DNA from: an uncultured Nitrospirota bacterium
GTDB taxonomy: Bacteria > Nitrospinota > Nitrospinia > CAJXCL01
Direction: 5' to 3'
Assembly (NCBI GenBank): GCA_913051775.1
Contig: CAJXCL010000006.1
Location: forward strand, 1-64,000
Length of the DNA: 64,000 bases
A program made the translations under genes and the position numbers. Each line of letters starts with the position of its first letter. Positions within the stretch are counted from its first letter, which is position 1. The notes below the pieces were generated by a model. It had not been told where the DNA came from, made no database searches, and saw only the letters and a program-made list of their open reading frames with translations. Below, piece by piece: positions 61,713 to 64,000 of this stretch.

Positions 61713-61881
61713 AGTATGCTATTAATTTTATATTATAAAAAATAATAATCAACCCCAATATAGAATTTTAAAAATTCTATATCGGGTTTTGCGTTTTAAT
61801 CTAAATGATTTGGACACGCTCGACATTATGTTGACAATTGAATTGGATTAAAATATTTTAGTGTTTTTGGAGGGTACTAAT

Positions 61882-62118
61882 ATGAATGAAACACATTTTG
61901 ACATAGAATTAAATTGTAGGGGTTTATCCTGTCCATTGCCTATCGTTAAAACAAAAATGGCTATTTCAAAATTGAGGGAAGGACAGGTGCTTAAGATAAT
62001 TTCTACAGACCCCGGGACCAGAGCTGACATGGCTGCATGGTCTTCCAGAACCGGCCATGAAATTATAATGTCTGAAAATAATAACGGGGAATACATTTTT
62101 TATCTTAAACATAAATAA
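61882..62118 (+). CDS. TusA-family sulfur carrier protein
   Basis: LNCRGLSCPLPIVKTKMAISKLREGQVLKIISTDPGTRADMAAWSSRTGHEI (CPxP motif). Track ORF starts at 61861; ATG at 61882 preferred. Confidence 0.92.
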   Translation: MNETHFDIELNCRGLSCPLPIVKTKMAISKLREGQVLKIISTDPGTRADMAAWSSRTGHEIIMSENNNGEYIFYLKHK

Positions 62119-62119
62119 C

Positions 62120-62353
62120 TTAAACCTTTTTTTGGACTATTATATGCCAATCGGTACTGTTTATCTTTATTACTTCCAAAACCTTATGCCCTTCGTTTTC
62201 CATACTTCCGGGGACATTTTTCGTAGCAGGCTCATGGTCAATAATTATTTTAAGAATTTTTCCCGCATCCATTTCTTCAAGCGTTAGTTTAGACTTTACA
62301 AAAGTATAAGGACAAACCTCTCCTTTTATGTTAATTGTTTTATCCGGTTCCAT
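62120..62353 (-). CDS. TusA-like/YeeD-like sulfur carrier protein
   Basis: INIKGEVCPYTFVKSKLTLEEMDAGKILKIIIDHEPATKNVPGSMENEGHKVLEV (CPYTFVK motif). Confidence 0.85.
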   Translation of the reverse strand: MEPDKTINIKGEVCPYTFVKSKLTLEEMDAGKILKIIIDHEPATKNVPGSMENEGHKVLEVIKINSTDWHIIVQKKV

Positions 62354-62368
62354 GTATTAATTTCTATC

Positions 62369-62632
62369 CTATACACAAACAACTTTATCGGTAGAAAAGA
62401 TTATATTCAGCATTTCCTTATAATCTATTGCTTGATTCTCTGTGTTTATTTTACATAAATCCGCGTCTTCTTTAAGAACTTTTACTTTATCTATTTTCCT
62501 CAGTTTTTCTAGGCAAACGGCGTTTTGGATTAAAATTGCCTCATGATTTTCTTTTTTTATATCGAAATATTTTAAAAATGGAGAATCAGGGTTACGGATA
62601 ATAAAAAGAGATTTTTTCATTTTATTTATCAA
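62369..62632 (-). CDS. DsrH/TusB-like small protein
   Basis: SLFIIRNPDSPFLKYF...AILIQNAVCLEKL; position in a DsrE-family operon; 4-nt overlap with the upstream gene. Confidence 0.6.
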   Translation of the reverse strand: MINKMKKSLFIIRNPDSPFLKYFDIKKENHEAILIQNAVCLEKLRKIDKVKVLKEDADLCKINTENQAIDYKEMLNIIFSTDKVVCV

Positions 62633-62967
62633 TGAATAACAACATTTGCCTTATCAAGAAGATCAATAAACTCAGGGGGCTTAATACTTTGATATTTAAT
62701 ATTATTAGAAATAGAGAAATTGCCCGCATCTTCTACATAAAACTTTGCATCCAATTCCGCCAGCATTTTAACATGTTTGAAAGCAGGTTTCATATTGGCC
62801 TTTGATTTATCCAGTTCCTGCAAAACATGACATGAATTTCCTAAGAACACGAGATTTAAAATATTTTCATCATTTAAGGTTAAACCCACGGCAAGGCGAA
62901 GCTTTTCTAAAGCTTTGTTTGTTTCAAAGGTATAATCGGAAAAAATAATAAAAATGCTTTTGGTCAA
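62629..62967 (-). CDS. DsrE/DsrF-like protein
   Basis: SIFIIFSDYTFETNKALEKLRLAVGLTLNDENILNLVFLGNSCHVLQEL; DLLDKANVVIH. Confidence 0.65.
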   Translation of the reverse strand: MTKSIFIIFSDYTFETNKALEKLRLAVGLTLNDENILNLVFLGNSCHVLQELDKSKANMKPAFKHVKMLAELDAKFYVEDAGNFSISNNIKYQSIKPPEFIDLLDKANVVIH

Positions 62968-63040
62968 ATTCCCTCCTAAACGCGTAAAAATTTTGCTACG
63001 AAGTATTTTGAGATTCGTATTTTATTAAATTCCAATGAGA

Positions 63041-63355
63041 TTATATAAACGCAATATACCTGTCTGTTTCATTAGCGATAAAGGCATTGTCATATTGGCT
63101 TCCGTATTTAAATCCTTGGTATTTATAAGCATGAAGCTCATCCGCGCTATGAGTACAAACCGTCACCTTAACTCTCTTATCTTTAGCAAGTTCTTGAAGG
63201 GATTCGTTTGTCCCGTTAAGCGCTCCCTCATGCATCAGAAAAAGTTCAACTTCTATACCCTCTTTTACTGCTGCCGACGAAAGACCAATAGCTGAAAGGG
63301 TATCCTGGCTTTCAGGTCCCTTAAAAAGCAGTATTCCAAGTTTTTTCTTTTTCAT
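63041..63355 (-). CDS. DsrE-like protein
   Basis: KLGILLFKGPESQDTLSAIGLSSAAVKEGIEVELFLMHEGAL...VTVCTHSADELHAYKYQGFKYGSQYDNAF. Confidence 0.72.
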   Translation of the reverse strand: MKKKKLGILLFKGPESQDTLSAIGLSSAAVKEGIEVELFLMHEGALNGTNESLQELAKDKRVKVTVCTHSADELHAYKYQGFKYGSQYDNAFIANETDRYIAFI

Positions 63356-63358
63356 AAA

Positions 63359-63688
63359 TCAGGGACCTTTATCAAGTTCAGGCAAGATAAACTGTTTTTC
63401 AATTTGGGTAATCTCGCTAACTTTTTCCACAATAGTTTTCATTTTTATTTTTAACGGCTCAAAATAAAGGCTGATTTTTCTTTCATTTGCTTTAAAGCGA
63501 GCTGAATTGACACCCTCCAATTTTTTTAACTCACTGGCTATCATATCCTTACCCATAATACAGCAGATATTATTTTTATCGAAATTGATTGTTAAGCGTT
63601 TTTCATCCGCTTGTGCATGGGATGCAACTACAAAAAACATCAAGAACAAAAGACTAATCTTAAAAATCCGCTGCTTTAGCCACATCAT
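63359..63688 (-). CDS. Periplasmic HMA-like protein (signal peptide; NICC motif)
   Basis: Signal peptide MMWLKQRIFKISLLFLMFFVVASHAQA; ICCIMGKDMIASELKKLEGVNSARFKANERKISLYF resembles a heavy-metal-associated fold. Confidence 0.5.
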   Translation of the reverse strand: MMWLKQRIFKISLLFLMFFVVASHAQADEKRLTINFDKNNICCIMGKDMIASELKKLEGVNSARFKANERKISLYFEPLKIKMKTIVEKVSEITQIEKQFILPELDKGP

Positions 63689-64000
63689 CTAAATCCATCT
63701 CCAATTGTTTTGCGACTTTCATCATTGCTCTTGGCTGAAATAAAGCCGCGAAAGCTGTAGGTTTTAAATAAGAAATGTAAATCGTATTTTCATTTTTCGG
63801 CTGGTAAACCACTAATCGGACAGGCATAAAGACGCCTGCTCTCAAATCCGACGAAACAACTTCATTGCAATTTATGAGATTGCACATTTCGATAATCTTA
63901 TAATGCTGAAACCCTATGCTTAATTTATCTACCAGTGCGGCTTTTTCTTTTATGTTATCAACATTTACAATTTTTACAATGCGATAATTTTTTAATTGGG
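63660..64000 (-). CDS. DUF302 family protein (N-terminus beyond the window)
   Basis: Frame is open to the window edge: ...IVKIVNVDNIKEKAALVDKLSIGFQHYKIIEMCNLINCNEVVSSDLRAGVFMPVRLVVYQPKNENTIYISYLKPTAFAALF. Confidence 0.7.
   Translation of the reverse strand, partial: QLKNYRIVKIVNVDNIKEKAALVDKLSIGFQHYKIIEMCNLINCNEVVSSDLRAGVFMPVRLVVYQPKNENTIYISYLKPTAFAALFQPRAMMKVAKQLEMDLDDVAKAADF

Follow-up and report, generated by a model that had tools for sequence, protein, structure and literature searches.

Genes encoding DsrEFH are used to recognise dissimilatory sulfur oxidation, and those of type II have recently been used to suggest oxidation in many sulfate reducers. The locus described here raises the question of what such genes are for when they are joined to import genes in a genome lacking matches to the usual acceptors. 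The window, i.e., the whole stretch of DNA analysed, corresponds to positions 1-64000 of a contig of 74107 bases. The assembly (2.05 Mb, 96% complete, 107 contigs) is a single metagenome-assembled genome, and absence from it does not amount to proof of absence. Its relatives are Nitrospinota, and it is the sole member of its family among the genomes compared.

Layout of the operon

A first-pass annotation of the window described six nearly gapless minus-strand genes at the right edge. The open reading frames exist as stated, and the TusA, DsrE and DUF302 families pass the Pfam cut-offs (Table 1). The annotation had also advised extending the contig past position 64000, and this proved fruitful: YeeE, SoxZ, SoxY, two cytochromes c and a beta-propeller protein were found on the same strand. 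The operon thus extends beyond the window, which shows only its lower half, from DUF302 to TusA2. Read 5' to 3' on the minus strand, the order is cytochrome c, beta-propeller, cytochrome c, SoxY, SoxZ, YeeE, DUF302, HMA-like protein, DsrE, DsrF, DsrH and TusA2. From the second cytochrome c through TusA2, neighbouring genes overlap or stand at most 75 bp apart. The DUF302 and HMA genes share 29 bp, and no signal peptide was seen in the DUF302 protein.

Table 1 Features of the operon and of the facing tusA1 gene
Feature	Position	Strand	Evidence
TusA1, classical CPLP TusA	61882..62118	+	PF01206 2.3e-22, above Pfam cut-off
TusA2, CPYT type, putative cytoplasmic sulfur carrier, last gene of the operon	62120..62353	-	PF01206 7.5e-19, above Pfam cut-off
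DsrH (type II)	62369..62632	-	family profile, gene order
DsrF (type II)	62629..62967	-	family profile
DsrE (type II), with Cys67	63041..63355	-	PF02635 1.4e-6, above Pfam cut-off; profile; model fold
Small exported HMA/MerP-like protein	63359..63688	-	vicinal CC in place of CxxC; weak profile matches
DUF302 protein	63660 to start at contig position 64082, beyond the window	-	PF03625 7.2e-10 to 1.1e-9, above Pfam cut-off
YeeE	contig 64115-65260	-	PF04143 1.2e-51
SoxZ	contig 65276-65641	-	PF08770 3.7e-13
SoxY	contig 65622-66086	-	PF13501 4.4e-16
Cytochrome c	contig 66122-66472	-	PF00034 (two cytochromes: 1.9e-7 and 3.7e-9)
Beta-propeller	contig 66719-67576	-	
Cytochrome c	contig 67884-68315	-	PF00034 (two cytochromes: 1.9e-7 and 3.7e-9)

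TusA1 had been called divergent from these genes. In fact tusA1 and tusA2 run towards each other and lie tail to tail, a single base pair separating their stop codons. The start of tusA1 is more likely the ATG at 61882, behind GGAGGG, than the GTG at 61861. Whether TusA1 belongs to the relay system is uncertain. Between cvpA and tusA1 (window 61754-61786, minus strand) there is a near-perfect 15-bp hairpin, CCCGATATAGAATTTTTAAAATTCTATATTGGG, followed by a weak T tail. Were transcription of the minus-strand operon to end there, its RNA would cover tusA1 in antisense. The Rfam search gave no match, and the promoter search was uninformative (31 matches vs 23.7 expected). Upstream of the operon, genes for a DUF6445 protein, a methyltransferase and a B12/radical-SAM protein (L002:8499-12866) have a GC content of 43.5% vs 33-41% in the operon and window, and this stretch is possibly an acquired segment.

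A type II DsrEFH set with TusA

Searched singly, the small proteins are weak, and the DsrF-like, DsrH-like and HMA-like reading frames remain under the Pfam cut-off. Homologues were therefore gathered and family profiles used instead. The DsrE profile matches Allochromatium DsrE (2hy5_A, 1.8e-4), the DsrF profile DsrF (2hy5_B, 2.2e-11), and the DsrH profile both DsrH (2hy5_C, 5.7e-4) and TusB (3e-3). As a single sequence, DsrH matches TIGR03011 with E=0.02. Since chains A, B and C of 2hy5 are matched in gene order, the genes form a canonical dsrE-dsrF-dsrH set followed by tusA. The opinion that the order corresponds to neither tusBCD nor dsrEFH is thereby overturned; moreover, the yeeE/tusA/dsrEFH type is published as YTD (PMC13293266). 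DsrF and DsrH are no chance reading frames, as shown by the family profiles and by same-order homologues in other phyla. The HMA-like label rests on weak profile matches (NCBIfam UxxU_metal_bind 4.7e-6 and PF00403 0.005, both under cut-off). The latter protein has a hydrophobic N-terminal signal, as read off the sequence.

The structural models agree in part. The AlphaFold model of DsrE (pLDDT 96) has 2hy5_A as its best PDB match in Foldseek (E 7e-7, TM 0.81, 20% identity). The DsrH model is confident (pLDDT 88), yet it gave no significant Foldseek match, and DsrH is therefore assigned by profile and gene order. In the whole genome, the DsrE Pfam family matches two genes of this set and no others.

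A plausible cysteine had been proposed for each carrier. This holds for DsrE, in which Cys67 is invariant in 20 homologues, and for TusA2, in which the CP motif is invariant among the homologues aligned. In contrast, the cysteines of 'GNSCHVL' in DsrF and 'NAVCLEK' in DsrH are replaced in relatives. Such variation fits DsrE as the holder of the active cysteine.

DsrEFH type II was described as the yeeE-tusA-dsrE-F-H cluster (YTD) of Electronema, Desulfobacterota and Nitrospirota. There, Cys67 is the transfer residue, and the DsrE of Electronema exchanges sulfur with TusA, with onward transfer to DsrC. Type II occurs in 985 genomes of 20 phyla, and 73.9% of the type II genomes carry reductive dsrAB (PMC13293266). 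Judging from DsrE/F/H homology, Cys67 and the synteny of tusA and yeeE, all of which are found here, the locus fits within this group. It also shares with YTD the roughly 20% identity to type I DsrE. Nevertheless, several differences exist. SoxYZ, cytochromes c, a beta-propeller, DUF302 and an HMA-like gene are attached here, tusA comes last instead of first as in the Nitrospirota loci examined, and the source genome has neither dsrAB, which most type II genomes carry, nor dsrC. The missing dsrAB and the low identity of DsrE to the Allochromatium protein also set the locus apart from the type I set of the rDsr pathway.

The profiles of DsrE, DsrF and DsrH match the 2d1p chains as well, and DsrEFH is homologous to TusBCD. 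A relay of the TusABCDE type for the 2-thiouridine of tRNA could thus be envisaged. We regard it as very improbable, because the TusE/DsrC family, the partner required in TusBCD-type thiolation, is absent from the genome, and because MnmA is not among the neighbours of DsrEFH, which belong to import in this genome and to cysteine synthesis in relatives.

The probable import half

The YeeE protein carries three cysteines that align with those of TsuA, and its two halves stand in the YedE/FdhT order. SoxY ends in ...GGGC, its cysteine being the final residue. Both SoxY and SoxZ score over the Pfam cut-offs and under the NCBIfam cut-offs for 'true' SoxY and SoxZ, and neither operon cytochrome is matched by the SoxA or SoxX models. 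As for the Sox thiosulfate oxidation system, the SoxYZ carrier is thus present at the Pfam level, but SoxB is not found over cut-off (best match 134 bits vs a cut-off of 550, a 5'-nucleotidase-like gene).

Two known systems resemble this half. In Hyphomicrobium denitrificans, the YeeE-family transporters SoxT1A and SoxT1B are proposed to pass sulfane sulfur from SoxYZ to cytoplasmic sulfurtransferases (PMC11582611). In those modules, however, sulfur is delivered to sHdr oxidation or to a repressor, the acceptors are Rhd442/DsrE3C or TusA and not DsrEFH, and SoxXA and SoxB are present. The TsuA-TsuB (YeeE-YeeD) pair for thiosulfate uptake likewise joins a YeeE-family transporter to a TusA-like partner and serves sulfur assimilation (PMC11073785). 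It differs in having neither SoxYZ nor DsrEFH, and the halves of its transporter are in the opposite order.

In the present operon, periplasmic SoxYZ would hold sulfane sulfur on the C-terminal cysteine of SoxY, and the cytochromes c would be likely electron acceptors during its loading. By analogy with SoxT and TsuA, the three-cysteine YeeE might then pass sulfur inward as thiosulfate, polysulfide or SoxY-bound sulfane (PMC11582611, PMC11073785). TusA2 would accept the imported sulfur and DsrEFH distribute it via Cys67 of DsrE, if the biochemistry described for YTD applies (PMC13293266). The first-pass annotation had suggested a role in sulfane-sulfur trafficking or detoxification. Trafficking is well supported, and further strengthened by the upstream YeeE and SoxYZ; for detoxification, nothing found favours it over biosynthetic supply. 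YeeE, SoxYZ, DsrE, F, H and TusA stand in a single run of genes. Import and relay of sulfane sulfur in general is a reading in which we have considerable confidence.

A selenium route was also considered, in which a YedE/FdhT-like transporter, a YedF-like TusA and the HMA relative would move reduced selenium to the selenophosphate pathway. Indeed, the best NCBIfam matches are YedE/FdhT for the transporter (125 of 350 bits), YedF for TusA2 (51 of 79) and UxxU_metal_bind. All of these, including the YedE and YedF models, stay below cut-off, and SoxYZ and DsrEFH have no known role in selenium metabolism. Selenium trafficking seems improbable.

The YeeE-SoxYZ half may have been imported horizontally. 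Its unique occurrence in the phylum fits such an origin, as no other of 77 genomes of the phylum has a YeeE match at E <= 1e-10, but the GC content (YeeE 41%, SoxYZ 37%, window 37%) is not clearly foreign. Viral contigs with YeeE included no relative, and plasmids yielded only distant YedE proteins of about 27% identity and no match to the HMA-like protein. The set of cytochrome c, beta-propeller, cytochrome c and SoxYZ (contig 66122-68315, plus the adjoining soxYZ) resembles the PedF/beta-propeller/SoxYZ-like carrier sets of PQQ-dehydrogenase clusters. This likeness rests on TIGR04494, TIGR03866 and TIGR04557, all under cut-off, and no PQQ dehydrogenase gene was seen there.

Acceptors and a proposed link to cysteine synthesis

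The acceptors known for DsrEFH are missing from the 96% complete assembly: neither DsrA nor DsrB scores over cut-off, PF04358 (DsrC/TusE) is without match, and sHdr was not found, the only CCG-domain proteins being an SdhE-type subunit and a GlcF-like protein. These results bear directly on dissimilatory sulfur oxidation or disproportionation, in which sulfur supplied by SoxYZ and YeeE would pass from TusA through DsrEFH and DsrC to DsrAB working in the oxidative direction. The gene set is the same as that of the YTD cluster, for which this role was proposed elsewhere for DsrEFH type II; the presence of SoxYZ and c-type cytochromes hints at a periplasm tied to energy metabolism; and SoxT-type import from SoxYZ to the cytoplasm was proposed in Hyphomicrobium (PMC11582611). 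Considering that DsrAB, DsrC, sHdr and SoxB all failed to appear, we judge this explanation unlikely, albeit the least unlikely of the alternatives.

The genome holds a CysO-like carrier (3dwg_C, 1e-20), MoeB, a CysM-like synthase and a Mec-type JAB protease. The carrier reaches ...IIPAIAGG and continues with a 15-residue tail; the JAB gene lies on another contig. MoeB (271 aa) has no rhodanese domain, and the carrier system therefore depends on sulfur donated from elsewhere. Rhodanese-free E1 proteins in sulfur-assimilation operons were reported by Iyer et al. (PMC1779556) to be accompanied by SirA/TusA, a picture in which DsrEFH does not figure. The CysO-like carrier, rhodanese-free MoeB, CysM, JAB protease and suggested TusA/SirA donor are shared with the CysO-CysM-Mec system of Mycobacterium and the ThiS-JAB-E1-SirA operons (PMC1779556). 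Unlike in those systems, the donor genes here stand apart from the carrier operon, next to the import genes.

The Nitrospinota relatives suggest a connection between the relay and the CysO genes. Their cysteine operon reads ThrC-CysO-MoeB-DsrE-DsrF-CysM-DsrH-TusA-NIL-Rrf2, and its counterpart in the source organism is ThrC-CysO-MoeB-CysM-Rrf2, in which 8 and 18 bp take the place of the 755 bp (DsrE-F) and 1143 bp (DsrH-TusA-NIL) of the relatives. The remaining genes plainly correspond to those of the relatives (identity of 75% for ThrC, 75% for MoeB, 71% for CysO and 63% for CysM). TusA2 is 64-72% identical to the TusA of the Nitrospinota cysteine operons and 33-35% to the TusA of Nitrospirota YTD clusters. 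It clusters with the former in the tree (bootstrap 56) and looks relocated from the cysteine operon. DsrE is more divergent than TusA2, with 42% identity to its cysteine-operon counterpart, and the DsrEFH set forms a long branch outside the Nitrospinota cysteine-operon clade. A simple relocation of a vertically inherited DsrEFH out of the cysteine operon was thus rejected: TusA2 fits, the DsrEFH tree does not. DsrEFH would have been either replaced by a foreign set arriving with the import genes or fast-evolved.

The association extends to other phyla. In Poribacteria, the operon reads Rrf2-CysO-MoeB-CysM-JAB-DsrE-DsrF-DsrH-TusA-MoeB. MoeB or CysO lies within about 10 kb of DsrE in 11/27 loci (Nitrospinota, Chloroflexota, Poribacteria), which corresponds to P of about 3e-8 at a 5% chance per locus, or 3e-4 when counted as 6/20 lineages; the 5% chance, which we consider generous, and the lineage count are our own estimates. 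A mention of the DsrEFH-CysO/MoeB link was not found in the literature searched, which was essentially open-access only. As to the conservation survey proposed in the first-pass annotation, the dsrE-F-H order does recur in other phyla, but the complete operon order has no second occurrence in the genomes searched. Conservation therefore supports the two halves and not their union.

Since the genome shows none of the known dissimilatory acceptors, and since in relatives the same TusA and DsrEFH are housed in CysO-MoeB-CysM operons, CysO appears to be the likeliest final acceptor. The rhodanese-free MoeB would adenylate CysO, which would then become a thiocarboxylate from which CysM would make cysteine, as the genomic context suggests. 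The DUF302 and HMA-like CC proteins are given no role in this scheme. What the sequence shows is the gene content and order, the families, the conserved active cysteines, the lack of matches to Dsr, DsrC and sHdr, and the pattern of relocation. From the genomic context and the analogies given above, we infer each sulfur transfer proposed for this organism, the nature of the imported compound and the hand-over from DsrEFH to MoeB/CysO. To the operon as an import and relay line that ends, via CysO, in cysteine synthesis we give about an even chance. Several points count against it. Lying outside the clade, the DsrEFH set could have been acquired or have evolved fast and serve a different function; the connection of DsrEFH to CysO is one of genomic context; and sulfide made from sulfate by CysH and sulfite reductase, both also encoded in the genome, could feed CysM without any relay.

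A different acceptor is offered by a 797-aa NirA-type nitrite/sulfite reductase whose C-terminal TusA domain bears a CPF motif (contig C40, L064:3728-6121, minus strand). The relay might serve this fusion in sulfite or sulfane handling during sulfate/thiosulfate assimilation, bypassing the CysO step. Its TusA domain is 35% identical to TusA2; the gene is, however, unlinked to the operon, and no precedent was found for DsrEFH with such a reductase. This makes the fusion a rather doubtful destination, somewhat below the dissimilatory one in probability. Proteins of similar length were matched by the same DsrA search in two further genomes (G001 and G062).

On the whole, the locus is a new arrangement of a sulfur relay described not long ago, with cysteine and not energy as its likely purpose. 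More broadly, DsrEFH may also be assimilatory in several phyla, passing TusA-bound sulfane sulfur to rhodanese-free MoeB/CysO, and may here have been rewired to SoxYZ-YeeE import, giving sulfane sulfur of the periplasm a direct path to cysteine. We put this wider proposal forward tentatively, at somewhat less than an even chance. If a sizeable part of the DsrEFH family supplies cysteine sulfur, the inference of sulfur oxidation fails for genomes without dsrAB. Furthermore, the locus offers a testable answer to the sulfur source of rhodanese-free CysO systems and a concrete route for sulfane sulfur from the membrane to an amino acid.

The CysO-like carriers vary at their ends: the GG end is exact in Poribacteria, and elsewhere 1 to 15 residues follow the GG. 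The JAB protease may thus trim the carriers before they are used. In Chloroflexota (L029 2365-11014; L096), two different DsrEFH sets share a cluster with CysO/ThiS-type carriers, MoeB and TusA; the L029 cluster also has CysK. Between the two sets lie genes for a cytochrome-b-like protein and a DsrK/HdrD-like ferredoxin protein.
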